DNA from: a virus
Virus record (IMG/VR): IMGVR_UViG_3300027859_000022
Location: 1 to 53,112 of that record
Strand: one strand, 5' to 3'
DNA: 53,112 nt
Positions within the stretch are counted from its first letter, which is position 1. Every line of letters starts with the position of its first letter. Under the pieces are notes generated by a model. It searched no databases and had not been told where the DNA came from. It saw only the letters and a list, made by a program, of their open reading frames with translations. Shown piece by piece: positions 1-52,615 of the stretch. The position numbers were made by a program, and so were the translations under genes.

Positions 1-956
1 TGGAGTCTGGTAAGGAATTTGCTTCAAAAGCAGATTTAGAAAAGATGGATGTTACAAATTTTATCAAAGATTATGGAGCTGAAGTTTATCAAACAGGTAT
101 TTTGCAGACTAAGGTTAAAACTTTGCAGAAAGCTTTGAAAAATACAAAGGATGCTGCCGAAAAAACAAAAATTAAAAATGATATTAAATCTTTACAAACA
201 GATATAAGAAAGTCTATTGATACTTTAGAAAAATCTATAGGCGATATGGATGTTAATTTCGGCTTACCTAAGTTTAGTGATGTAAATAAACCAGGCACAA
301 AAGAAGCTTTTAAAAAGTTTTTGAGAAAAGAATATTATGACCAATATAGACCAGGTTTGGCAAATATGGATGCAGATAGAATTATCAAAAAATCTGATCT
401 AGCTAAAGGCAGGGTACCATCTACTCTGAATTATTTAAGAGATAGTATGCCAGGCAGAGGCAAACAGTTTTTAAACGAAGGTGTGCCAGAAGATGCAATC
501 TTCAACAAAATTATTTCTGCAAGACCGATAACCAATAAACTTTACAGAAGTCCTTTTGATGAAGGTGGAGGTTCAAAAGGGTTTACCACTAATTATATCG
601 AACCTGTTGTAAGAAGAGACTTGGCTGAAGCTATTGACGAAGGGTACGACATTTTTAGAGTAACTTCTGGTAAATCTATGTCTAAGACTAAAGAAGTAGC
701 TCCAAAGGTTTATGATGAATTGATACCCAACGCACTCAAAAAAATATTTAAACAAGAAGGTCTAGATCCTAACGAATATATATTCCAAATAAGTGATGTT
801 GGACAAATCGCAACCGATACAGGAGATAGTCGTCAAATACATGCCCTTACAGGTACTTTTGTAAAAATTGATGACAAGCTCAGAGAAATATTTAGAAAAA
901 GTGGACTACCTACTTATAGAAAAGGTGGAATAGTAAATGCTATACAAAGTTTATGA
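1..956 (+). CDS. 3' part of a 356-aa pre-terminase protein cut by the window edge
   Basis: The frame is open from base 3, before the first ATG at 45, so the start lies outside the left edge. Joined to the partial gene at 52998-53112 it makes one continuous 356-residue protein (115 + 956 bases = 357 codons). Visible features are a Lys-rich helical stretch at about residues 60-110 of the joined protein and a C-terminal third with 'EGYDIFRVTSGK' followed by 'YDELIPNALKKIF', reminiscent of a motif I recall from large phage polyproteins. It ends in a Gly-Gly 'RKGGIV' tail. The stop overlaps the TerL start (ATGA). It is probably a virion or packaging-associated protein; the function is not recognised. 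Confidence 0.75.
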   Translation, partial: ESGKEFASKADLEKMDVTNFIKDYGAEVYQTGILQTKVKTLQKALKNTKDAAEKTKIKNDIKSLQTDIRKSIDTLEKSIGDMDVNFGLPKFSDVNKPGTKEAFKKFLRKEYYDQYRPGLANMDADRIIKKSDLAKGRVPSTLNYLRDSMPGRGKQFLNEGVPEDAIFNKIISARPITNKLYRSPFDEGGGSKGFTTNYIEPVVRRDLAEAIDEGYDIFRVTSGKSMSKTKEVAPKVYDELIPNALKKIFKQEGLDPNEYIFQISDVGQIATDTGDSRQIHALTGTFVKIDDKLREIFRKSGLPTYRKGGIVNAIQSL

Positions 957-2413
957 GTTTCAATCACTTATCAGATGCGGAGATAAAAGAAGCCTTAGCT
1001 TTACGAGAAAGATTAGACTTACTTAAAAAACAAGAAATCTGCAAAACCAATTTTTTAGAATTTATAGACCACATGTGGGATGGGTTTATTTGTGGTCGTC
1101 ATCATAAAATCTTTGCTGAAAAACTAGAAGGTATTGCTAATGGCACGATCAAAAGATTGATTGTCAATATGCCACCAAGACACACAAAGTCTGAATTTGC
1201 TTCCACATATTTTCCAGCTTGGATTATGGGAAGGGATCCGAGTAGAAAAATTATGCAAACTACGCATACAGGAGAACTTGCTGTTAGGTTCGGTAGAAAA
1301 GTTAGAAACATGATGGATAGCGATATTTATAAACAAATATTTCCTGAAGTAAGTTTATCGTCTGACAGTAAATCAGCAGGTCGTTGGGAAACTAATAAAA
1401 GTGGTGAGTATTTTGCAGCTGGTGTCGGAGGAGCAATTACGGGTCGTGGTGCGGATTTATTAATTATTGATGATCCTCATTCTGAACAAGATGCTATGAG
1501 TCCGACAGCCATGGAGTCTTGTTGGGAATGGTACACTTCTGGACCAAGACAAAGGTTACAACCAGGCGGATCTATTGTCCTAGTTATGACAAGATGGAGT
1601 GGTATAGATTTAACAGCTAAGTTATTAGAAGCTCAGAAAGAGGCTTTAGCAGATCAATGGGAGATTGTAGAGTTCCCAGCTATTTTTCCTGAAACCGAAA
1701 ATCCTTTATGGGAAGAGTTTTGGTCATTAGAAGAATTGTTAAAGGTAAAAGCATCTTTGCCTGTTATGAAATGGAATGCTCAATGGATGCAAACTCCAAC
1801 TTCCGAAGAGGGCTCGATAGTTAAACGTGAATGGTGGCAAAAATGGGAAAGCGATACTTTGCCTAATGTAAGCTACATAATTCAATCTTACGATACTGCT
1901 TTTTCTAAAAAAGAAAATGCTGACTACTCTGCTATTTCAACTTGGGGCGTGTTTAGACCTGATGAGGATTCACCAGATTCGATTATACTTTTAGATTGTC
2001 AAAAAGGCAGATACGATTTTCCTGAGCTTAAAAGATTAGCTATGGAAGAATATAAATATTGGGAGCCTGATATGGTGTTAATTGAAGCAAAAGCTTCGGG
2101 TACGCCTTTGACTCACGAACTTAGAAGATTGGGTATTCCTGTTGTTAATTACTCTCCTACAAGAGGACACGATAAAACCACTCGAATGCACTCTGTTGCA
2201 CCTATCTTTGAAAGTGGGTTAGTGTATGCTCCACAAAAAGCTTTTGCGGAAGAAATGATAGAAGAGTGTGCTTCTTTTCCTTTTGGTGCTAATGATGATT
2301 TATGCGATACTATGACTCAAGCCTTGATTAGATTTAGAGAAGGTGGGTTATTATCATTACATGATGATTACGAGGACAATGATCAGGCACCAATAGTTAG
2401 AAGTTATTATTGA
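953..2413 (+). CDS. terL: Terminase large subunit (ATPase and nuclease)
   Basis: This is the DNA-packaging motor: an ATPase that threads DNA into the prohead and a nuclease that cuts the concatemer. The 486 residues are a normal length. Visible motifs are the variant Walker A MPPRHTKSE (73-81), Walker B LLIIDDPH (169-176), a motif III-like VMTRW (211-215), and the RNase H-like nuclease residues D314 (YDTAFS), E378 (EAKASG) and D449/D452 (DDLCDT). The start is set by a 4-base ATGA overlap with the preceding gene. The small subunit is not adjacent; a TerS-like gene lies at 43.4 kb. Confidence 0.97.
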   Translation: MSFNHLSDAEIKEALALRERLDLLKKQEICKTNFLEFIDHMWDGFICGRHHKIFAEKLEGIANGTIKRLIVNMPPRHTKSEFASTYFPAWIMGRDPSRKIMQTTHTGELAVRFGRKVRNMMDSDIYKQIFPEVSLSSDSKSAGRWETNKSGEYFAAGVGGAITGRGADLLIIDDPHSEQDAMSPTAMESCWEWYTSGPRQRLQPGGSIVLVMTRWSGIDLTAKLLEAQKEALADQWEIVEFPAIFPETENPLWEEFWSLEELLKVKASLPVMKWNAQWMQTPTSEEGSIVKREWWQKWESDTLPNVSYIIQSYDTAFSKKENADYSAISTWGVFRPDEDSPDSIILLDCQKGRYDFPELKRLAMEEYKYWEPDMVLIEAKASGTPLTHELRRLGIPVVNYSPTRGHDKTTRMHSVAPIFESGLVYAPQKAFAEEMIEECASFPFGANDDLCDTMTQALIRFREGGLLSLHDDYEDNDQAPIVRSYY

Positions 2414-37409: not shown

Positions 37410-37730
37410 TTAAGATTGAAGATCTTTTATGTTTCCAAATATAGATTCGTAAGTAAGCTTACCCTCTGTCGCTTTAATTATTTGATGAGCTTGTTTTATA
37501 GATGGATTTCTATATCCATAACGCCAAGCTTTAATAGACGCTTCAGAACAATCAAAAGTTGATGCAGACTCCTTAACTCCTAAAAACTCAATATAGTCTT
37601 TAAGTGAGTAGTGCTTTACTTTTTTGTTTTGAAACTCTGGCTCATGTCCAGATTTTTTTAGATTTTTTAGTGCTTCATCCGACAGTTTTTTTTGTCGGTG
37701 ATAGTAATTAGCTTTCCAAATTTCATTCAT
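37410..37730 (-). CDS. HTH transcriptional regulator (106 aa)
   Basis: 106 residues. Residues 40-90 (YSLKDYIEFLGVKESASTFDCSEASIKAWRYGYRNPSIKQAHQIIKATEG) show the helix-turn-helix pattern of Cro/YdaS-like regulators, with an 'ASIKAWRYG--NPS' recognition region. It is the first gene of its operon and faces the Sak4 gene across 87 bases that contain overlapping promoters with TAGTA direct repeats. It probably represses or switches those promoters and may bind the TAGTA box of other promoters. Confidence 0.72.
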   Translation of the reverse strand: MNEIWKANYYHRQKKLSDEALKNLKKSGHEPEFQNKKVKHYSLKDYIEFLGVKESASTFDCSEASIKAWRYGYRNPSIKQAHQIIKATEGKLTYESIFGNIKDLQS

Positions 37731-37752: not shown

Positions 37753-37781
37753 TTTACACATAGTATAGTATAGTCTATAAT
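37753..37781 (+). promoter_or_regulatory. Promoter of the Sak4-SSB operon
   Basis: TTTACA (37753-37758), 17 bases, TATAAT (37776-37781); TAGTA begins two bases after the -35, and a second TAGTA follows at 37766-37770. Start of transcription expected near 37788, 30 bases before GTG 37818. Confidence 0.85.
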
Positions 37782-39712: not shown

Positions 39713-39812
39713 CTTCCCAATTTTGTATTTGTTCTAATAGGTGCTCAGGCAATACAACTTCATTGTTTGCTACTTTATTTTCAAGATAATCTTTTAATTT
39801 TTGTAATATCAT
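39690..39812 (-). CDS. Micro-protein after the methyltransferase (40 aa)
   Basis: 40-residue acidic, helical product (MILQKLKDYLENKV...NWEDEEKEEK) starting in ATGA overlap with the methyltransferase stop. Unknown function; coupling supports translation. Confidence 0.55.
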   Translation of the reverse strand: MILQKLKDYLENKVANNEVVLPEHLLEQIQNWEDEEKEEK

Positions 39813-41125
39813 TTTAGATCCATATTTTTTAAAATGTGTGCGATAACATCTATAGTCCAACCGTTGCCTAACATTTTTAGTCTTTGCGAGTTTGATACAT
39901 GGTTAGTGTAATTATCAGGAACTGTTTGAAGGCGTTCACATTCTATTGGTAAAAGTTTTCTCCAAGATAAATCTTCTACTACAACACTATCCTTTTGTAC
40001 TGATCCTATTGAATTACTTTTTTGATCTTTTCTTAGCTCTAGCATTTGCTCAGGCTTTGAGTCTTTCCATTTTACCCTTTGCCCTTTATCGTCATAAGAC
40101 CTTGCTCTCCAAGCTCCTGATAAAACTTTAGGCTCACGATTACCACCTCCCATTGTATTTAATGTTGGCGACTTGCCTTCTGGTGAGTAAACTCTTTTTA
40201 GTATGTCGTGTCCATTTATGTCAACAGCTACGCCAACTTGCATAGGCGTGGTTGCTTTTTCATTTACCCACATGTTTCCATTGCTGATATTTGTTCTTAG
40301 CGTAGTGGATTTATTACCTTTAATTTCTTTTTTATTATAAGGATCATTGAATTTAGCATTTTTATTTTCGACATATTTTTCTACGGAGTTTTTAGATATG
40401 TATTTTTTGTTTAAAGCATAAAGGCTATCTGTCGATTGTTTGTATTGATTTGCAAGTAAAGCCCCACTCTTTTCTTGGCCAGGTTTAAAAGCTCTGGATC
40501 TTGGGTTATCTTTTGCTCTTTTATTTGCAAGATCAGATAAAGCATAACTTTCTGTATTTTCTTTAATAAGAATATCTTCCAAAATAATATTTTTATCTAT
40601 TGGCTGCTCTATGTTTGGTATGTTAGTCCAATACAATCTCAGTCTATTTTGAGCTGATACAAGAGCTGAATTAATTAAAATGGGCTTTATCTTACCTTCA
40701 AATAAATCGCCACCTTGAAACTCAGGATAGCAAACAGAAACCTGGTTTGTTATTACATCTTGAAACTCTTGTTTCATTCTGACATTTTCTAATAAAAAAT
40801 ATTTTGGCTTTATTTCTTTTAATAACCTAATGAACTCAAAAAATAGTGCAGACCTTGGATCGTCAAAAGCCAACTGTTTGCCAGCAAAAGAAAAACCCTG
40901 ACAAGGAGAACCAGCAAGTATTAAATCTACATCTTTGAAATCTTTTGGATCTAAATTACAAACATCTCCAACTTGGATTGTGTCGGGAAAATTAGCTTGG
41001 GCTACTTGAATTGCAAACTTGTCTATTTCACTTGCATAATAAGTATCTACCTCAATACCAAGTCTTTTTAGAGCTAACTGACCACAACTCATTCCATCAA
41101 ACAAACTTAGAACTCTAATCCCCAT
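39809..41125 (-). CDS. C5 cytosine DNA methyltransferase
   Basis: 438 residues with motif I LFDGMSCGQLAL (8-19), motif IV GSPCQGFSFAG (72-82, catalytic C75), motif VI ENV (113-115), motif VIII QNRLRLYW (159-166) and C-terminal motifs ERLQTVPDNYT and MLGNGWT-DVI. The target-recognition region is at about 200-380. It transfers methyl from SAM to cytosine C5 in a specific site, which may protect phage DNA from restriction or mark promoters. No restriction partner is visible. The recognition site cannot be read from the sequence. Confidence 0.94.
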   Translation of the reverse strand: MGIRVLSLFDGMSCGQLALKRLGIEVDTYYASEIDKFAIQVAQANFPDTIQVGDVCNLDPKDFKDVDLILAGSPCQGFSFAGKQLAFDDPRSALFFEFIRLLKEIKPKYFLLENVRMKQEFQDVITNQVSVCYPEFQGGDLFEGKIKPILINSALVSAQNRLRLYWTNIPNIEQPIDKNIILEDILIKENTESYALSDLANKRAKDNPRSRAFKPGQEKSGALLANQYKQSTDSLYALNKKYISKNSVEKYVENKNAKFNDPYNKKEIKGNKSTTLRTNISNGNMWVNEKATTPMQVGVAVDINGHDILKRVYSPEGKSPTLNTMGGGNREPKVLSGAWRARSYDDKGQRVKWKDSKPEQMLELRKDQKSNSIGSVQKDSVVVEDLSWRKLLPIECERLQTVPDNYTNHVSNSQRLKMLGNGWTIDVIAHILKNMDLK

Positions 41126-42744: not shown

Positions 42745-42774
42745 ATTATATACACAATTAGTATAATATGTCCA
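42745..42774 (-). promoter_or_regulatory. Promoter of the exonuclease-methyltransferase operon
   Basis: On the - strand: TGGACA (42774-42769), 18 bases, TATAAT (42750-42745). The + strand here reads TATATACACA (42747-42756), an element repeated in the right arm. Confidence 0.72.
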
Positions 42775-42930: not shown

Positions 42931-43224
42931 ATGGCTTACGAAGTTATAAATTTTACTGAAAAATTAGGGCCGCCTACTACTCAAGAACTTATAAGCAAAT
43001 GCGATAGCATAGTAGATAATCATTGCATAAGAGGAGAGTCGGAACTTATGACTAGCCTTTGTATGCTTTCTTATGCTTTGCAAAAGATAATGCAGATCAC
43101 ACAGTCGGAACAAGAAACAGTACGCCTGGTTAATGAAACTTTAGATGCTCATTTACCTGATAATTACATAGGGGAAGAAGGTATATATTTTACTGCTGAT
43201 TTTGAATTAGATCCTGAAAATTAA
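42931..43224 (+). CDS. Unknown small protein (97 aa) upstream of the small terminase
   Basis: 97 residues, helical, acidic at the C terminus (VINFTEKLGPPTTQELISKCDSIVDNHCIRGES, LNDAH-like helices, DFELDPEN). No family recognised. It has its own -10 box and is followed by a terminator hairpin, so it is monocistronic. Confidence 0.62.
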   Translation: MAYEVINFTEKLGPPTTQELISKCDSIVDNHCIRGESELMTSLCMLSYALQKIMQITQSEQETVRLVNETLDAHLPDNYIGEEGIYFTADFELDPEN

Positions 43225-43231
43225 TATTGTC

Positions 43232-43271
43232 GGGTTTTTGTCATGGTGTTTATGACAACGCAAACCCTTTA
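43232..43271 (+). terminator. Terminator after gene 42931
   Basis: GGGTTTTTGTCAT (43232-43244) pairs with ATGACAA-(3-base bulge)-AAACCC (43252-43267), followed by TTTAT. A GTCGG motif begins at 43229, close to the stop codon. Confidence 0.65.
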
Positions 43272-43355
43272 TTTATAAGGCTTTCATTAATATTTTATTT
43301 TTTTCATTTTTGTCATAAGAATAATAAGAAAATACCCCTTAATACTCTAAAGTTC

Positions 43356-43385
43356 TTGACAACTAAACAGTCGGGAGTGTACCCT
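43356..43385 (+). promoter_or_regulatory. Possible promoter for the small terminase gene
   Basis: TTGACA (43356-43361), 18 bases, TACCCT (43380-43385). A good -35 with a poor -10. The spacer contains GTCGGG. Confidence 0.35.
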
Positions 43386-43445
43386 TGCTACACACTATTG
43401 GGAGAATGGTGGGAGGAGGTCGTATTAGAATACGCTAAAAAAATC

Positions 43446-43982
43446 ATGGCAGATTATCAAAAGAAACATGATACAACTTACGAAGGCAATCTACTTGCTG
43501 AAAAAGATACTCCTCCTATCGAAACTTGCAACCTAGACAAGAAACTCAATCGCAGACAAAGAATATTCATTTGGACTGCTGTAAATAATCCTAGACTATC
43601 TCTGATCGAGTCGGCTGCGAAGGCAGGTTATAAAGATCCACGACAGGCCGCAAACAAGCTCATGAGCAATCCTTTAATTAGATCCGAATACAATTACCTG
43701 ATGAATGAAGTTAAGAAGAAGTACGAGCTTAATTATGATCGGGCAGTTCAAGATTTGTACGACATTCGGGATAAAGCTTTGGAAGCTGGATCCTTTAATG
43801 CAGCAATCTCAGCTCAGAATAGTTTGCTTAGAGTCGGGGGACTTATTGTTGACCGTAAGGAAGTTATGTTCGGAAAAATTGACCAAATGAGTAGAGAAGA
43901 AGTCGAGGGCCGCTTAGAAACGCTGCTTGGTCAGACAATAGAGGCACAAGTTATTCAAGATAGCACAAGTTATTCAAGATAA
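43446..43982 (+). pseudogene. terS: Terminase small subunit, C terminus altered by a 19-bp duplication
   Basis: From ATG 43446 the product has 178 residues: a polar N terminus, a Terminase_2-type HTH (RQRIFIWTAVNNPRLSLIESAAKAGYKDPRQAANKLM, about 38-75) and a helical oligomerisation region (VQDLYDIRDKALEAG...SLLRVGGLIVD). It should recognise pac/cos DNA for TerL. The frame extends upstream to a TTG at 43227 but that part has no family character; AGGAGG at 43414 sits too far from the ATG. An exact 19-bp tandem duplication at the end shifts the frame; removing one copy gives an acidic tail ending at 44034 (189 aa). The core is probably still functional. Confidence 0.8.
43944..43981 (+). repeat. 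Perfect 19-bp tandem duplication (frameshifting)
   Basis: 43944-43962 and 43963-43981 are identical (gcacaagttattcaagata). Nineteen is not a multiple of three. Confidence 0.96.
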
Positions 43983-47956: not shown

Positions 47957-47990
47957 TAAGTATCTATAAAAAATAATAAAAAATATTCAG

Positions 47991-48097
47991 TCGTTGCTAT
48001 CAGAAAAGGAAATCGCATTACCCCTCTCTTTTGATCGCTTACTGTAAAAAAAAGCAGTTTTTCCTAACTGAATAGGATCAACAAAGTCGGCTCACAT
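47991..48097. repeat. 107-bp direct repeat, copy 1
   Basis: Differs from copy 2 (48107-48213) only at two adjacent bases near its start; spacer of nine bases. Contains cattacccctctc, a run of eight A, GCAGTTTTTCC and GTCGGCTCACAT at its end. Confidence 0.93.
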
Positions 48098-48106
48098 AAT
48101 ATCTAA

Positions 48107-48213
48107 TCGTTGTAATCAGAAAAGGAAATCGCATTACCCCTCTCTTTTGATCGCTTACTGTAAAAAAAAGCAGTTTTTCCTAACTGAATAGGATCAACAA
48201 AGTCGGCTCACAT
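48107..48213. repeat. 107-bp direct repeat, copy 2
   Basis: Second copy; immediately followed by GTCGGGAGTCGG. Confidence 0.93.
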
Positions 48214-48339
48214 GTCGGGAGTCGGTTTAGGAATTGTCGGGTAAAGTTTTTGGAGTATATACACATAAGTTTAACACAACTGATCCTTCAGGCCAGGGGA
48301 TCTTTTCTTGGATCTCAAACCTGCCAGGATGATTTTTGG

Positions 48340-48368
48340 TTTACAAATAGTATAACTAAAAGTTATAA
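48340..48368 (+). promoter_or_regulatory. Upstream tandem promoter with TAGTA box
   Basis: TTTACA (48340-48345), AA, TAGTA, then TTATAA at 48363-48368 (17-base spacer). Confidence 0.6.
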
Positions 48369-48407
48369 GAATTGTTTACTTTATGTAAAATTAATCTAAA
48401 TAAATAG

Positions 48408-48436
48408 TTGACAAATAGTAAACTGTCTGACATAAT
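48408..48436 (+). promoter_or_regulatory. Promoter of gene 48468 with TAGTA box
   Basis: TTGACA (48408-48413), AA, TAGTA, 17-base spacer in all, CATAAT (48431-48436). Transcript start near 48443. Confidence 0.82.
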
Positions 48437-48467
48437 ACACTCATAACTTAAACAAAAGGGAGACATT

Positions 48468-48710
48468 ATGACTAAAAAAGATTACGAACTAATAGCTAAA
48501 GCGATCAAAGATAATACCGAATGGGTGCGAGTTGATGACGGATATGGCGAAACTCTTGAAGAAAGAAAAATACATCCCGTTGATATTATGGTCACTCTAT
48601 CGATTGCTTTTGAAAAAGAAAATCCAAATTTTGACCAATACAAATTTTTTGATGCTTGTAAAAAACCTTATCCTGAAGATTGGAAACCCGAAAAAACTAC
48701 AGAAGAATAA
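48468..48710 (+). CDS. Cassette gene 1, small protein (80 aa)
   Basis: 80 residues with AAGGGAG before the ATG. Acidic and helical (DYELIAKAIKDNTEWV, HPVDIMVTLSIAFEKENPNFDQYKFFDACKKPYPEDWKP). The 'KDYELIAKAI' start is common in small phage proteins. Own promoter and a strong terminator; unknown function. Confidence 0.68.
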   Translation: MTKKDYELIAKAIKDNTEWVRVDDGYGETLEERKIHPVDIMVTLSIAFEKENPNFDQYKFFDACKKPYPEDWKPEKTTEE

Positions 48711-48726
48711 AGTCGGGAGCAGTCGG

Positions 48727-48751
48727 GGGGAGCTTTTGCTCCCCTTTTTTT
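48727..48751 (+). terminator. Strong intrinsic terminator of cassette 1
   Basis: GGGGAGC-TTTT-GCTCCCC (48727-48744) followed by seven T. GTCGG motifs at 48712 and 48722 lie immediately upstream. Confidence 0.95.
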
Positions 48752-48846
48752 GTTTTAAAAAAAATCTAAAGTACACAATAAAGATCACAAGCTCCTCCAG
48801 CCAGGTAGATCTTGTTCTGCGTGTTCTCCAGGGGTAAAAACAATAG

Positions 48847-48875
48847 TTGACAATTAGTAGCCAAGTAGATATTAT
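48847..48875 (+). promoter_or_regulatory. Promoter of cassette 2 with TAGTA box
   Basis: TTGACA (48847-48852), AT, TAGTA, TATTAT at 48870-48875, 17-base spacer. GCCAGG (48798) and CCAGG (48829) upstream. Confidence 0.8.
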
Positions 48876-48905
48876 TTAAGTTCACTAATTAACGGAGAAA
48901 AAGAT

Positions 48906-49064
48906 ATGAGTGAGAAACTTAAATATGTATGGAAAGAAAATAAGTACGGGCATTACCGTATATCTATAGTATCTATAGATGGTCTAGAGTTTAATTCTCT
49001 ACGCCAAGCAAAAGTTCATATTAAAAATAAAAAGGCGAGAGCTAGGAGGAGATTGAATGGCTGA
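48906..49064 (+). CDS. Cassette 2 gene, small basic protein (52 aa)
   Basis: 52 residues, ATG after CGGAG. Beta start (LKYVWKENKYGHYRISIVSIDGLEF) and a basic tail (KNKKARARRRLNG), suggesting nucleic acid binding. Overlaps the next gene by eight bases and holds its AGGAGG site. Confidence 0.65.
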   Translation: MSEKLKYVWKENKYGHYRISIVSIDGLEFNSLRQAKVHIKNKKARARRRLNG

Positions 49065-49389
49065 TTTAAAAAGTTCAACAGACGAAAGACTTTACGAGAT
49101 GTGTAAAGACATTCAAGAAAACATTCCTAACTATCAATTTCATGATCCAGAAGATGACAACTATCTTGAAGTATATGATGAAAAATATATTGTTGGTATA
49201 GATGGCGAGTTTCAAGACTGTATCCTGATGGTTGCAGGTGGTGGTCCAGTTATATGGATTGATACTTGGAGTCAAGAGGTCCAGGGGTATTGGGGTACGG
49301 ATAAAGTAGCTCTGCCGATATATGACTACGAGCATATAAAAGACCACTTTGAAGAAATGTGCGTGGGTAAAACTATAGGTCTTTCATGA
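49057..49389 (+). CDS. Cassette 2 gene, acidic protein (110 aa)
   Basis: 110 residues, acidic, with DERLYEMCKDIQENIPNYQFHDPEDDNYLEVYDEKYIVGIDG and GGGPVIWIDTWSQEVQGYWG. Has GGAGG before the ATG. Its TGA overlaps the micro-gene start (ATGA). Unknown. Confidence 0.65.
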   Translation: MADLKSSTDERLYEMCKDIQENIPNYQFHDPEDDNYLEVYDEKYIVGIDGEFQDCILMVAGGGPVIWIDTWSQEVQGYWGTDKVALPIYDYEHIKDHFEEMCVGKTIGLS

Positions 49390-49460
49390 TGATGGAAATG
49401 GAAATAGTTTTACTGACCTTAATAGCTCTAGTAGTGTTGGTTGATTACTTACTAAGCTAG
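49386..49460 (+). CDS. Membrane micro-protein (24 aa), paralogue of the one at 44101
   Basis: 24 residues with three in-frame ATGs, then EIVLLTLIALVVLVDYL, one membrane span with an Asp near its end. Coupled to the upstream gene. Compare EIVLVALIGIVVLIDYY at 44101-44172 in the other arm. Confidence 0.6.
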   Translation: MMMEMEIVLLTLIALVVLVDYLLS

Positions 49461-49479
49461 TCGGAGTCGGAGCAATCGG

Positions 49480-49509
49480 GGGCAGTTTTCGGACTGCCCT
49501 CTCTTATTT
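49480..49509 (+). terminator. Terminator of cassette 2
   Basis: GGGCAGT (49480-49486) pairs with ACTGCCC (49493-49499), six-base loop, then TCTCTTATTT. GTCGG motifs at 49460 and 49466 precede it. Confidence 0.75.
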
Positions 49510-49588
49510 GGATCTGAATATAAACACACAAAAACAACCAGCCAGGTATGCCAGGAGAGGAAGTGGGTTTGGATATGTTTTTGTTTTG

Positions 49589-49617
49589 TTTACAAATAGT
49601 ATATTTACTGTTATAAT
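49589..49617 (+). promoter_or_regulatory. Promoter of cassette 3 with TAGTA box
   Basis: TTTACA (49589-49594), AA, TAGTA, TATAAT at 49612-49617 with a 17-base spacer. GCCAGG occurs at 49541 and 49549. Confidence 0.88.
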
Positions 49618-49639
49618 AAAATCTTTACGGAGAAACATT

Positions 49640-49939
49640 ATGAAACTATTAAAAGATGCTAAAGCTAATTTGACTGACGAGCTTATAGATGTTGTTCTTA
49701 AATCAGAAACTGATGATAAAGAATATGATGTTGGTTATTACTTTGGAGTTAAGACAGTAATTCAAAATAAAGAGATAAAAGATGCCGTAGCAGGTATTAG
49801 CTATATAGTTGGAGAGGTTGAAGAGAAACATTATGCTGAACATTATAATGTTGAAAATCCTAACGACATTCCAACAGAAGAACTGCAAGAGCATGTTTAC
49901 AAATATATCAGAATTCTTGTAGATAATTTTGGAGCTTAG
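49640..49939 (+). CDS. Cassette 3 gene (99 aa)
   Basis: 99 residues from ATG 49640 after ACGGAGAAAC; the frame is open upstream to 49508 but that part covers the promoter. Acidic, helical (DAKANLTDELIDVVLKSETDDKEYDVGYYFG, EEHVYKYIRILVDNFG-like end). Unknown function. Confidence 0.66.
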   Translation: MKLLKDAKANLTDELIDVVLKSETDDKEYDVGYYFGVKTVIQNKEIKDAVAGISYIVGEVEEKHYAEHYNVENPNDIPTEELQEHVYKYIRILVDNFGA

Positions 49940-49940
49940 T

Positions 49941-50195
49941 ATGTCGGAATACCTAGATAGAATAAACCATCACGAGTTTGATATGAAGATTGGACTTAAG
50001 CAAGGCACATTTGAAATGTTCGGACACATCAACTCTGATGGGGATATTGACTACGATTTCTTCTTAGACCAAAAGCATTTAGATTGTGGCTGTCTTATGA
50101 TTTCGGTTGCAGATAGTAGCGAGTCGTATTGGTGGGAATGGATTGTTTGCGATATTTTAAAAACATACGATTTCAATAAAAAAAGATTTCTTTAG
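49941..50195 (+). CDS. Cassette 3 gene, paralogue of cassette 4 protein (84 aa)
   Basis: 84 residues from ATG 49941 (two bases after the previous stop). Shares 'LKQGTFEMF--INS-G--DY-FFLDQ--LD-G' and a WEWIVCDILKTYDF end with the protein at 50370. Acidic, aromatic, beta-type. A duplicated small gene of unknown role. Confidence 0.68.
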   Translation: MSEYLDRINHHEFDMKIGLKQGTFEMFGHINSDGDIDYDFFLDQKHLDCGCLMISVADSSESYWWEWIVCDILKTYDFNKKRFL

Positions 50196-50210
50196 TCGGA
50201 GTCGGAGGTC

Positions 50211-50241
50211 GGGCAACTCTTAGGGGTTGTCCTTTCTTTTT
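50211..50241 (+). terminator. Terminator of cassette 3
   Basis: GGGCAAC (50211-50217) pairs with GTTGTCC (50226-50232), then TTTCTTTTT. GTCGG motifs at 50195, 50201 and 50208. Confidence 0.78.
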
Positions 50242-50315
50242 GCCTGAAGGATATATATACACAAATAATCACAAATTTATGATCCAGGCAAGTTGTTGTG
50301 CTAGTTCTCTCTAAG

Positions 50316-50344
50316 TTTACTTTTAGTAATAACCAGGTTATAAT
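50316..50344 (+). promoter_or_regulatory. Promoter of cassette 4 with TAGTA box
   Basis: TTTACT (50316-50321), TT, TAGTA, TATAAT at 50339-50344 with a 17-base spacer. TATATACACA at 50254-50263 and CCAGG at 50284 upstream. Confidence 0.82.
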
Positions 50345-50369
50345 AAATAAAACTTAAATGGAGAATAAT

Positions 50370-50675
50370 ATGAGTGAGGAGTATCAAGACTATATTGTTG
50401 ACGGTTTGCCTGAATACAATTTTAAGCTAGAACTTAAACAGGGGACATTTGAAATGTTTGCAACTATCAATAGCTATGGCTTTATGGACTATAACTTCTT
50501 CCTGGATCAACAGCTTTTAGATGGTGGTGTGTACGGAGGATATTGGTGTAAGTCAGATAGCTATGGCGACTTCAATGAAAGTGATGAGAGCAGTCTTTAT
50601 GAGCAAGAGTGGGGTTATCTCTGCTCATTCGTTCTTAAAGATTACGACTTTGAAAATAAAACTTGGGGTGTGTAA
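50370..50675 (+). CDS. Cassette 4 gene, paralogue of cassette 3 protein (101 aa)
   Basis: 101 residues from ATG 50370 (GGAGAATAAT before it). Middle part ELKQGTFEMFATINSYGFMDYNFFLDQQLLDGG closely matches the protein at 49941; a Ser/Gly/Tyr insertion (GGYWCKSDSYGDFNESDESS) distinguishes it. Unknown. Confidence 0.68.
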   Translation: MSEEYQDYIVDGLPEYNFKLELKQGTFEMFATINSYGFMDYNFFLDQQLLDGGVYGGYWCKSDSYGDFNESDESSLYEQEWGYLCSFVLKDYDFENKTWGV

Positions 50676-51013
50676 TGACGACAAAAGTGTATTGTGATGA
50701 ATGCGATAAAGTTTTACATGTAAATTGTGCAGGTGGTGTCGGAACAGAAGTAGATGTGGAGATGCCAAATGCTGATTATGTTTTAAGGATTGGAGATTTT
50801 GACACAGATTTATACTTGTGTCCAGCTTGGAATACGAATGACTTTCATGTCTGTCTTGATTGCTACTACGAGAAGTATGTGTGCAAAGAAGGTTGGGTAG
50901 ATGTGTCGGCTCAACTGTTTGAGTTCATGCAAGAGATTGGAATGGAAGAACAGTATGCAGATACTAGAAAACACCTGACTGATATGATCCAGAGGGGTAT
51001 TGACAAAAAGTAG
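50675..51013 (+). CDS. Cysteine-rich, zinc-ribbon-like protein (112 aa)
   Basis: 112 residues from ATG 50675, which shares a base with the previous stop. Residues 6-9 (CDEC) and CLDC near residue 66, with CP and C-EGW nearby, suggest a zinc-binding site. Acidic C-terminal helix. Possibly a regulator or host-takeover protein; unproven. Confidence 0.64.
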   Translation: MTTKVYCDECDKVLHVNCAGGVGTEVDVEMPNADYVLRIGDFDTDLYLCPAWNTNDFHVCLDCYYEKYVCKEGWVDVSAQLFEFMQEIGMEEQYADTRKHLTDMIQRGIDKK

Positions 51014-51077
51014 AAAGTAGCTATACTAACTTGGTCAATAATAGCTTTTGCTATTCTTGGTCATAATGTCCCAAATT

Positions 51078-51110
51078 GAAACCTCTAGTCTCGGCTAGGG
51101 GTTTCTCTTT
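51078..51110 (+). terminator. Terminator of cassette 4
   Basis: GAAACCTCTAG (51078-51088) pairs with CTAGGGGTTTC (51095-51105), eleven pairs with one G-T, six-base loop, then TCTTTA. Confidence 0.82.
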
Positions 51111-51289
51111 ATGGGCGAAGGTAAGTCGGCAGTCGGGTGTCGGGTTTTCTTTTGTACGGGATTTACAGGGGAGCTGGGGTATGTCCACAATATAAACACA
51201 ATATTTTTTTTAGGATCCTGTGGGTAAATTTGGGGATTGGGGTTTGAAAAGACAGGCCAGACTTATTTAAATTATTTTTGCTTTGAGGG

Positions 51290-51318
51290 TTTACATTAAG
51301 TAATCTATTTGTTATTGT
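51290..51318 (+). promoter_or_regulatory. Promoter of cassette 5
   Basis: TTTACA (51290-51295), TT, AAGTA (variant of the box), TATTGT at 51313-51318, 17-base spacer. Confidence 0.7.
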
Positions 51319-51347
51319 GTGCTTATAAACAATTAAAGGAGGACATT

Positions 51348-51692
51348 ATGGTTTATATAAGAGAATGGGAAGTAGAAAAAGTATTTCAATCTTTATTGTC
51401 ATTAAATGATGAAAAGAAATATTTACTTTTAAATGATTATAGAGAGTTGCAAAAAATTCAAAGTGATTATGCAAAAGAAATAAAACCACTTGAAAACAAA
51501 ATAAAAAAACTAGAAGAAAAAATAAATCAAAAAAGAACTACTGTATCTCAATATAGAAGAAGTTATATGTGTAGGCATTTAAAACAATTAGATTTGCCTG
51601 TTTCAAAAATGGAAAAATTTGTGCATGACAGTTTTACTATTTTGGAAGAACAAATAAGACTTTTAGCTTTTAAAAAAGAGGAGGATAAGTAA
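51348..51692 (+). CDS. Coiled-coil protein (114 aa)
   Basis: 114 residues from ATG 51348 behind AGGAGGACATT. Residues 40-70 (KEIKPLENKIKKLEEKINQKRTT) form a basic coiled coil. The next gene's start shares a base with its stop. No family recognised. Confidence 0.68.
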   Translation: MVYIREWEVEKVFQSLLSLNDEKKYLLLNDYRELQKIQSDYAKEIKPLENKIKKLEEKINQKRTTVSQYRRSYMCRHLKQLDLPVSKMEKFVHDSFTILEEQIRLLAFKKEEDK

Positions 51693-52081
51693 TGAAAGGA
51701 TATATTATTGATAGTAATTTAAAGGGCGTTTTTCCAATAGATATTAGAAGTGATATGGATTACAAAGACATCTATAAGTATTTACATACAGATGTTAAGC
51801 GAGTAAGTGCTTTTGATGCAGTTCGGGTAAGAGGTACTAATGATTTGATTTATGTTGATGACGAGGGTTTATTAACTAGGGAGAATTATATGTTTGTTTT
51901 TGATCACTTGGACAAACATCATCTATTCGGGAATGGCTTAATACTTGGTACTGATACTGAAGGAGAAAGCATGACTCCCGAAATGTCATTAAATTGGTAT
52001 AGAGATAAAATTACCTTTGCAGATGAGTTGGTTTTGTGTGAGGACTATTTAGTTCCTCCTGTCTTTGTGCCTATTAAATAA
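51692..52081 (+). CDS. DUF3846-like protein (129 aa)
   Basis: 129 residues. The middle (VRGTNDLIYVDDEGLLTRENYMFVFDH...FGNGLILGTDTEGE) has the order 'E-DEG-L-N...I-G--ILG' of DUF3846, small proteins found on phages and plasmids near replication or anti-restriction genes. The match is partial; function unknown. Confidence 0.52.
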   Translation: MKGYIIDSNLKGVFPIDIRSDMDYKDIYKYLHTDVKRVSAFDAVRVRGTNDLIYVDDEGLLTRENYMFVFDHLDKHHLFGNGLILGTDTEGESMTPEMSLNWYRDKITFADELVLCEDYLVPPVFVPIK

Positions 52082-52083
52082 AT

Positions 52084-52113
52084 TTTACTTTTAGTATCTA
52101 CTCGTGGTAAGCT
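52084..52113 (+). promoter_or_regulatory. Weak promoter of gene 52146 with TAGTA box
   Basis: TTTACT (52084-52089), TT, TAGTA, then TAAGCT at 52108-52113 with an 18-base spacer. Poor -10. Confidence 0.5.
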
Positions 52114-52145
52114 TACCTTATTAACTAATCAATTAAGGAGACATT

Positions 52146-52388
52146 ATGAGAGTTAAAAAACTATTAATAAAAGTAGAGTTAGAGAATGGTGCCGAATGTA
52201 ATTTCGTTGAGTATCAAGCTTTTAGCTTAGTAATAAATGGCACACCTTATATTGTGAACGGAGAGTTCGATACTATCGATATGGAACGAGTTGTTCGCAT
52301 GACTGAGGACAGCATAAGGAGAGAGGGCAACACCATTGTTAATGGGCAAGTCCAAAATCCTAGATTGGAGAATGATTTAGACAGCTAG
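52146..52388 (+). CDS. Small protein (80 aa), last right-arm gene
   Basis: 80 residues with AAGGAG before the ATG. Beta-rich N-terminal half (KKLLIKVELENGAECNFVEYQAFSLVINGTPYIVNG), acidic C terminus. Unknown. A strong terminator follows, separating it from the late block. Confidence 0.66.
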   Translation: MRVKKLLIKVELENGAECNFVEYQAFSLVINGTPYIVNGEFDTIDMERVVRMTEDSIRREGNTIVNGQVQNPRLENDLDS

Positions 52389-52408
52389 AACAATTCTCCC
52401 TAGTTGGA

Positions 52409-52442
52409 AGAGTCAAGCAGAAATGCTTGGCTCTTTTTTTTT
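52409..52442 (+). terminator. Strong intrinsic terminator before the late operon
   Basis: AGAGTCAAGCA (52409-52419), GAAA loop, TGCTTGGCTCT (52424-52434) with one G-T pair, then T through 52442. Confidence 0.95.
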
Positions 52443-52566
52443 GGGACTCTTATTGGTCGGGAAAAATGATGCAGGTCGGCAGCTCTCTGGGTCGGCACCC
52501 CAAAATGGTATATATACACAAAGGTAGGTACAAGCACAATAATACACACAAACAATAACAATCATT

Positions 52567-52596
52567 TTAACAATTCTTCTTTTTGGGTTATATTAT
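52567..52596 (+). promoter_or_regulatory. Probable late-operon promoter
   Basis: TTAACA (52567-52572), 18 bases, TATTAT (52591-52596). No TAGTA two bases after the -35. It precedes the structural operon and is the only clear promoter in front of it. The gap 52389-52686 also holds TATATACACA (52511-52520) and GTCGG at 52456, 52475 and 52491. Confidence 0.62.
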
Positions 52597-52615
52597 GCTC
52601 ATGTATGGCATAAGT

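Follow-up and report, generated by a model that had tools for sequence, protein, structure and literature searches.

What kind of signal is the pentamer GTCGG, which crowds the gaps between small genes in the right arm of the phage genome IMGVR_UViG_3300027859_000022? The window analysed here is the whole of this IMG/VR virus record (53,112 bp, GC 34%, no tRNA; G000 in our comparisons), and a first-pass annotation had proposed GTCGG as part of a regulatory box repeated from gap to gap together with a hairpin terminator, an A-rich element, CCAGG sites and a promoter. We find instead that GTCGG is a phage-specific, strand-polar motif of the whole interval between the genes for the small and large terminase subunits (terS and terL), with cassettes or without them, and that the regulatory design common to the cassettes is TTKACWNWTAGTA rather than GTCGG.

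On the circular map, terL and the structural genes (plus strand) are followed by replication and recombination genes (mostly minus strand, 34-42.7 kb), by terS (43.4-44.0 kb, plus strand), by a run of small genes on the minus strand (44.2-47.9 kb) and by another on the plus strand (48.4-52.4 kb), after which terL comes round again. A TerS profile scan gave 565 confirmed contigs, of which 48 loci were used and 33 remained after dereplication (mean amino acid identity 85%); these are the 33 relatives referred to below. The landmarks of the interval, and the copies of the pentamer in and near terS, are:

953-2413, plus strand: terL, terminase large subunit (PHROG phrog_38, E=4.9e-110), which marks the array interval on its right-hand side in the circular map
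43446-43982, plus strand: terS, terminase small subunit (phrog_51, E=1.8e-10; Pfam Terminase_2, E=1.1e-4, below the curated cut-off)
43038, 43104, 43229 and 43370, plus strand: GTCGG copies, the first two both in the open reading frame (ORF) 42931-43224
43610-43614, plus strand: GTCGG in terS, the same codon column being occupied in 7/33 relatives
43833-43837, plus strand: GTCGG in terS, on Val-Gly codons, kept in 31/33 relatives

Counting both strands, the whole window holds 45 copies of GTCGG against 14.0 +/- 3.3 in dinucleotide shuffles, and six close pairs (GTCGG-N1-3-GTCGG) against 0.00 expected. From terS to terL (42.9-53.1 kb) 27 copies lie on the plus strand and one on the minus strand, while the rest of the window has 6 and 11, respectively. 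The first-pass annotation had offered motif excess over shuffled sequence as a test of its proposal, and the excess is there: when the seven gaps of 48.2-52.7 kb were taken by themselves (2000 dinucleotide shuffles), 16 plus-strand copies of GTCGG were found (shuffled mean 0.66, maximum 6), together with five of TATAWACAC (0.03 in shuffles) and eight of CCAGG (0.98, maximum 6), and the reverse complement of each was absent. Over the whole genome CCAGG is not enriched (45 copies, 40 expected). The pentamer stands at every gap position that the annotation had implied (48202-48236, 48712/48722, 49460/49466, 50195-50208, 51125-51139 and 52456-52491). Copies that it missed lie within genes: in terS and its upstream ORF (43038-43833) and at 49943, 50738 and 50905.

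The same distribution is seen in relatives. In the 52-kb relative G012, 26 of 28 GTCGGG copies are on the plus strand between terS and terL, and long relatives likewise restrict GTCGG to this interval with the same polarity. Aligned on the end of terS, the 33 relatives have a peak in the gene itself (63 sense copies and 0 antisense), with a plus-strand density of 3.8/kb over its last 500 bp. Over the following 1.5 kb the density is ~0.2-0.5/kb; it climbs again to 5-7/kb at 2-3.5 kb before decaying, which gives a second peak 2-5 kb beyond the gene. On the minus strand it remains within 0-0.5/kb as far as 6 kb. Where the copies form tandem arrays they are spaced by 5-8 bp, with a mode of 7 (51 cases at 7, and many at 5, 6 and 8).

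Copies inside genes allow constraint on the DNA to be separated from constraint on the message or the protein. In eleven sequences of the W-clade, which is the clade of the window's TerL, terS carries 23 copies in the sense direction and 0 antisense, where pooled codon usage predicts 0.4 and shuffling of the codons 4.9. In minus-strand genes within the interval there are 43 on the genome plus strand against two on the other, with 5.1 expected; genes outside the interval have no excess. ORFs were called mechanically as the longest ones, which makes these class totals approximate, and the terS genes and one block of the relative G009 were inspected. The G009 block, 3.9 kb of genes on the minus strand, has 12 copies on the antisense (genome plus) strand and 0 CCGAC. 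Within terS, the Val133 codon is GTC in 31/33 relatives and Ser152-Arg153 reads AGTCGG in 24/33, while at other conserved Val/Ser columns the top codon reaches a fraction of 0.31-0.61 (33 genes). The fixed GTCGG codons of terS point to selection on the DNA word and not on the protein. Since the word is synonymously fixed in terS and runs antisense to minus-strand genes of relatives, it has no role as a box in sense mRNA, and its confinement to the terS-terL interval, with or without cassettes, likewise tells against the earlier assignment as a regulatory box of the cassettes or as an element of their terminators.

One might still think of a 3'-end element of the mRNA, either repeats bound by an RNA-binding protein or an accessory to termination. 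In three window gaps (48.7, 49.5 and 50.2 kb) the array does begin at a stop codon and a hairpin follows. The order is reversed in two others (51.1 and 52.4 kb) and no strong hairpin is present at 48.2 kb, so that the hairpin terminator said to lie beside GTCGG is real in five gaps, in varying order. An mRNA-level element would be oriented like its transcript, and the 43 antisense copies against two in sense, with 12 and 0 in the G009 block, led us to reject the RNA-level model as extremely unlikely. An Rfam search of the right arm returned zero matches, and the arm therefore contains no known RNA element.

The window's TerL is 57-63% identical to that of the cultured pelagiphages HTVC023P and HTVC027P, and comparison across these clades reveals that the place is kept and the word is not. 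In the window's clade 9/23 loci pass a strict array test as against 0/36 control stretches. In the HTVC027P clade (TerL identity 85-99%), 17 loci extend 4 kb or more upstream, and 16 of them carry (GCTTGNN)n arrays in that interval (4/47 in controls); GCTTG repeats at exactly 7 bp in 165 cases, and GTCGG is not enriched. Other clades have arrays of CTTGC (7-bp spacing in seven cases), CTGCG or TTAAC type; 15/32 loci are positive in the L286 clade and 3/28 in the L276 clade, where some (TGAGG) resemble coding low complexity. Across all sets, control stretches downstream of terL were positive in 0/36, 4/47, 0/33, 2/54 and 0/48 cases. An apparent reversal of polarity in locus L290 (CAAGC, 22 vs 6) comes from an array block (L290 1-4000) that is inverted relative to L291 and to terL and whose junction cuts short a VRR nuclease-like gene and the one after it; it is probably a single-cell amplification chimera and hence was not counted as an exception. 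Array place, ~7-bp spacing and polarity would stay while the pentamer changes by clade; this may represent a rapidly evolving code by which the phage genome is recognised as self in packaging, or by some other machine that translocates DNA, a suggestion that we make with some reserve.

Several other repeats and genes adjoin these arrays. In some relatives a second heptad array, TAGACNN, comes right after the GTCGG arrays (L035 5578-5660, L034, L050), with TAGAC at 20 vs 2 to 21 vs 7. HTVC023P (L089 11700-12570) carries ACTAGGAAAA repeats on the upstream side of terS, with a tandem repeat of 33 bp (2.9 copies) just downstream; these and its TAGGAA repeats are inconsistent across the HTVC023P clade, and the latter were rejected on that account. 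A conserved gene of ~200 residues (MLKKEAREITGGLSKPSKMPGPAHNLPAVACKTGAKL...) adjoins the GCTTG or CTTGC arrays in L291, L286, L276 and L087, accompanied in L291 and L087 by a VRR-NUC-like gene.

The arrays belong to the phages. In three Pelagibacteraceae single-cell genomes every GCTTG heptad is on a phage contig, and in the metagenome-assembled genome (MAG) TMED104 every GTCGG pair is on a 53-kb phage contig, the link between MAG and phage being one of binning only. A repeat shared with the host was rejected on these grounds and because the host genomes sampled lack enrichment. The same counts bear on the idea of a Chi-like polar motif, recognised by the host, that would protect or direct incoming linear DNA. 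Like Chi, the motif is short, polar, clustered in position and indifferent to coding direction, but host DNA is at expectation for GCTTG (z=0.3, Pelagibacteraceae single-cell genome) and slightly under it for GTCGG (z=-1.2, TMED104), and HTVC023P is without arrays though it was isolated on the host strain of HTVC027P. We regard a Chi-like function as very unlikely.

The word is therefore polar, DNA-acting, phage-specific, centred on the terS-terL interval and swapped as a set between clades; with a helix-turn-helix (HTH) TerS at the edge of the interval, and with precedents among known packaging-initiation (pac) sites, this leads us to favour, tentatively, a reading of the interval as an extended pac region that the small terminase would read. 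A pac site is expected to be constrained as DNA independently of coding and to lie in or beside terS, and GTCGG conforms on both counts; in the HTVC027P-like L291 the array is beside terS, not inside. GTCGG would then be a recognition motif at the level of DNA, present as single copies in terS and neighbouring coding DNA and as tandem arrays in gaps, and its most likely reader would be TerS. The window's TerS has a predicted N-terminal HTH (helices 36-47, 53-60 and 65-74) within an AlphaFold2 model with a mean predicted local distance difference test score of 60 (74-86 in the HTH blocks); alignment makes TerS HTH-bearing in all clades, with model support for that of the window. Such a region would mark phage DNA and set the direction of packaging, and the gaps might merely offer room for arrays while also holding ordinary cassette machinery, a terminator and then a promoter overlapped by TTKACWNWTAGTA. 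In two complete relatives, G001 and the TMED104 phage, the ends overlap by 77 and 99 bp with differing breakpoints, giving circular maps that are compatible with headful packaging.

There is a good deal to be set against a packaging role. An interval of up to ~9 kb with >20 copies is very long for a pac site, and for TerS proteins in the literature the binding of pac in vitro is weak or non-specific (PMC9611059, PMC4737164). When the TerS model was searched against PDB structures nothing was significant, the top match being the NV1 small terminase (E=1.5). Arrays occur in 0/22 HTVC023P-clade loci despite a homologous TerS; in the HTVC027P clade the motif is outside terS, which itself lies in the opposite orientation; GCTTG is common to phages whose TerS proteins are merely ~31-37% identical; and TerS proteins alike in helix 3 (L277, L286) accompany different pentamers. 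Finally, each arrayed gap of the window runs into a promoter-like site, so that the arrays themselves might have a role in transcription. The layout of these gaps is as follows:

42747-42756, plus strand: TATATACACA, upstream of the terS block, no GTCGG array alongside
47982-48213, plus strand: 116-bp tandem duplication where the minus and plus gene blocks diverge; both copies (96-98%) contain AAAGTCGGCTCACAT and have a GTCGG at their end (48086 and 48202)
48202-48240, plus strand: GTCGG array 1 (48202, 48214, 48221, 48236)
48256-48265, plus strand: TATATACACA
48340-48352, plus strand: operator-like TTTACAAATAGTA
48408-48436, plus strand: promoter TTGACA-17-CATAAT with operator TTGACAAATAGTA
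48468-48710, plus strand: small orphan gene, 80 residues, no convincing family
48712-48726, plus strand: GTCGG array 2 (48712, 48722), immediately 3' of the stop codon
48725-48746, plus strand: intrinsic terminator-like hairpin
48847-48875, plus strand: promoter with operator TTGACAATTAGTA
49460-49470, plus strand: GTCGG array 3 (49460, 49466)
49478-49501, plus strand: intrinsic terminator-like hairpin
49519-49528, plus strand: TATAAACACA
49589-49617, plus strand: promoter with operator TTTACAAATAGTA
50195-50212, plus strand: GTCGG array 4 (50195, 50201, 50208)
50211-50232, plus strand: intrinsic terminator-like hairpin
50254-50263, plus strand: TATATACACA, then GATCCAGG at 50281
50316-50344, plus strand: promoter with operator TTTACTTTTAGTA
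51078-51105, plus strand: intrinsic terminator-like hairpin, upstream of array 5
51125-51143, plus strand: GTCGG array 5 (51125, 51132, 51139), exact 7-bp period
51191-51200, plus strand: TATAAACACA
51290-51318, plus strand: promoter-like site with one-mismatch operator TTTACATTAAGTA
52084-52096, plus strand: operator TTTACTTTTAGTA, preceding the gene 52146-52388, in a gap without GTCGG
52406-52437, plus strand: intrinsic terminator-like hairpin, upstream of array 6
52456-52495, plus strand: GTCGG array 6 (52456, 52475, 52491)
52511-52520, plus strand: TATATACACA

Part of the cassette picture drawn by the first-pass annotation stands. The small plus-strand genes are a string of separately promoted, usually terminated units of one design, with the marks of moron cassettes: terminators at 48.7, 49.5, 50.2, 51.1 and 52.4 kb (13 terminator-like hairpins in the window, 5.4 +/- 2.7 expected), promoter-like sites, and patchy homology between close relatives. 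TATATACACA is exact at all four places given (42747, 48256, 50254 and 52511) and the variant TATAAACACA is at 49519, its second copy being at 51191 rather than 51189; together these sites number six against 0.47 expected. CCAGG, in excess over the gaps as a whole, had been assigned to each cassette and is missing at 51.1 and 52.5 kb. The association of GTCGG with TATATACACA recurs in relatives, where GTCGG precedes 32 of 35 distinct TATAWACAC sites by no more than 75 bp, with CCAGG at 16 and GATC at 21 of the 35 within 95 bp downstream. Judged by sequence comparison, the composite of array, TATATACACA, CACAA, GATC/CCAGG and promoter is real in the closer relatives.

An alternative is a phage-encoded DNA-binding regulator or partition-type protein that would bind the arrays cooperatively, in the manner of omega on its 7-bp heptads, and control the cassette promoters or DNA compaction. 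The modal spacing of GTCGG, GCTTG and CTTGC is 7 bp (51, 165 and 7 cases), and gap arrays precede promoters, with TATATACACA and CACAA blocks in between. The single, spaced copies of terS and the antisense copies in minus-strand genes, however, have no adjacent promoter; no ribbon-helix-helix (RHH) gene was recognised among the window ORFs scanned against Pfam, a scan that took in part of the small ORFs; and the cassette promoters already own an operator with a likely cognate repressor. Such a regulator seems to us somewhat unlikely. An array next to an AT-rich block also looks like origin architecture, and the pentamers might be iterons or landing sites for a primase or initiator beside an TATATACACA unwinding region, with polarity imposed by one strand and an initiator that could differ among clades with different pentamers. 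Cumulative GC skew, reckoned from terL, turns at 46-48 kb, beside the arrays; the skew merely tracks gene direction, though, an origin would not usually have as many as five to six arrays in a genome, or copies in terS, and the mirror-image GTCGG that a bidirectional origin needs is not found on the other side. We consider a replication element unlikely.

Whether genes come and go with the flanking elements had been proposed as a check, and elements at the cassette boundaries could in principle be recombination repeats by which small genes are swapped whole. Here the support is weak: 12/27 homology breakpoints fall within 50 bp of an element where 23% would be expected (p=0.015, under a uniform null). 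The core gene terS also has copies, no recombinase site geometry (attC, att) was seen, and exchange at these repeats is, we think, quite improbable as their function.

What the cassettes do share is TTKACWNWTAGTA, which overlaps the -35 of their promoters. Seven exact copies are in the window (48340, 48408, 48847, 49589, 50316, 52084 and 37753), and 17 sites against 6.2 expected when one mismatch is allowed. The annotation was right that there is a common regulatory design, and wrong in its carrier, which is this operator/promoter box and not GTCGG. The copy outside the cassette arm belongs to a repressor gene:

37410-37730, minus strand: HTH repressor gene, 106 residues (phrog_35 transcriptional repressor, E=2.4e-7)
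37753-37765: operator TTTACACATAGTA, 23 bp upstream of the repressor gene start

The operator copy at 37753 also sits on the -35 of a divergent Sak4/SSB operon. There are eight exact TTKACWNWTAGTA sites in G001 (1+7) and six in the TMED104 phage (1+5), one being 23 bp from the repressor gene and the others in the cassette arm. Exact TTKACWNWTAGTA copies accompany the repressor gene and the target promoters and occur nowhere else in the window, in G001 or in the TMED104 phage; it is therefore likely that the Sak4/SSB operon and the small genes form a single repressor regulon, in which the phage repressor of 37.4-37.7 kb probably binds TTKACWNWTAGTA; alternatively, TTKACWNWTAGTA is a phage promoter consensus. 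A search for the operator in the distant relatives G012 and G009 (repressor 47-50% identical) gave no clear shared box.

Some further features of the window may be recorded. At 49389-49460 there is a probable hydrophobic peptide of 23 residues with a single transmembrane segment, MMEMEIVLLTLIALVVLVDYLLS, its stop codon sharing bases with the first GTCGG of array 3, and the small genes 49944-50195 and 50358-50675 are tandem paralogues (109 nt at 72% DNA identity) with relatives only in close phages. The 3' end of terS (43944-43981) is a perfect 19-bp tandem duplication. GATCC/GGATC is the top over-represented 5-mer by Markov z-score (93 copies, z 6.1; z 6.8 in the TMED104 phage), noted together with a C5 cytosine methylase gene at 39809-41125. 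A megablast search of the right half of the window against phage sequences returned zero matches.

How a small terminase selects its own genome is an open problem, and its DNA-binding mechanism has been reviewed as unclear and controversial (PMC9611059). With homologous terminases accompanied by different, easily read pentamers at one place, recognition could be put to a direct test in pelagiphages that can be cultured, HTVC027P among them, and a clade-changing polar pentamer code for packaging, if true, would be undescribed for any phage, here in a large lineage of marine podoviruses. The pentamer arrays also serve as a marker in sequence data for this group of ocean phages, the operator-repressor pair would define a small-gene regulon in a group with little-known gene control, and GTCGG is a clear example of regulatory-looking boxes that prove to be DNA-level signals.

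Close known phages are the HTVC023P-type pelagiphages HTVC023P and HTVC027P, with the TerL similarity given above and, from terS to terL, a variable gene region like that of the window (PMC9599517); the paper that describes them was not found to mention intergenic elements or permutation. HTVC027P carries GCTTG heptads, HTVC023P has none and the window phage carries GTCGG. No published description of GTCGG phage repeats or of the GCTTG heptad was found in the open-licence literature searched, which included pelagiphage papers. Chi and KOPS are likewise short, polar and insensitive to coding direction, but the tested host genomes have no enrichment and the present motif is confined to a single interval and forms tandem arrays. 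The orientation of stoperators follows transcription. Those of cluster A mycobacteriophages resemble GTCGG in being many asymmetric sites across a phage genome, and are bound by the immunity repressor with an effect on transcription (PMC9283540, PMC6550527). GTCGG differs in running antisense to whole gene blocks, against the orientation expected of a stoperator, and in its confinement to terS-terL, and the HTH repressor gene of the window phage is flanked by a different motif, TTKACWNWTAGTA. Omega, the RHH protein of pSM19035, binds WATCACW heptads upstream of promoters, and its heptads can be in direct or inverted orientation. The omega arrays, or parS, of pSM19035 are similar in their tandem 7-bp repeats, in their number and in their position upstream of promoters (PMC9499535). 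In our case there is one polarity, single copies occur in genes too, and no RHH gene was recognised among the ORFs scanned; a fixed 7-bp register is held by GCTTG in the HTVC027P clade, and GTCGG has many spacings of 5, 6 and 8 bp around its mode. The pac site of P1 has repeated hexamers in pacA. Published pac sites are in or beside terS, inside the gene in P22 and as three sets of direct repeats at its start in SPP1 (PMC9611059, PMC4737164). The likeness to these headful phages (P22, SPP1, P1) lies in short repeats in or near the small-terminase gene that are phage-specific, act at the DNA level and stand beside an HTH TerS; the difference is that here >20 strictly polar pentamers, known from sequence alone, extend over up to ~9 kb and many gaps in a word that depends on the clade.

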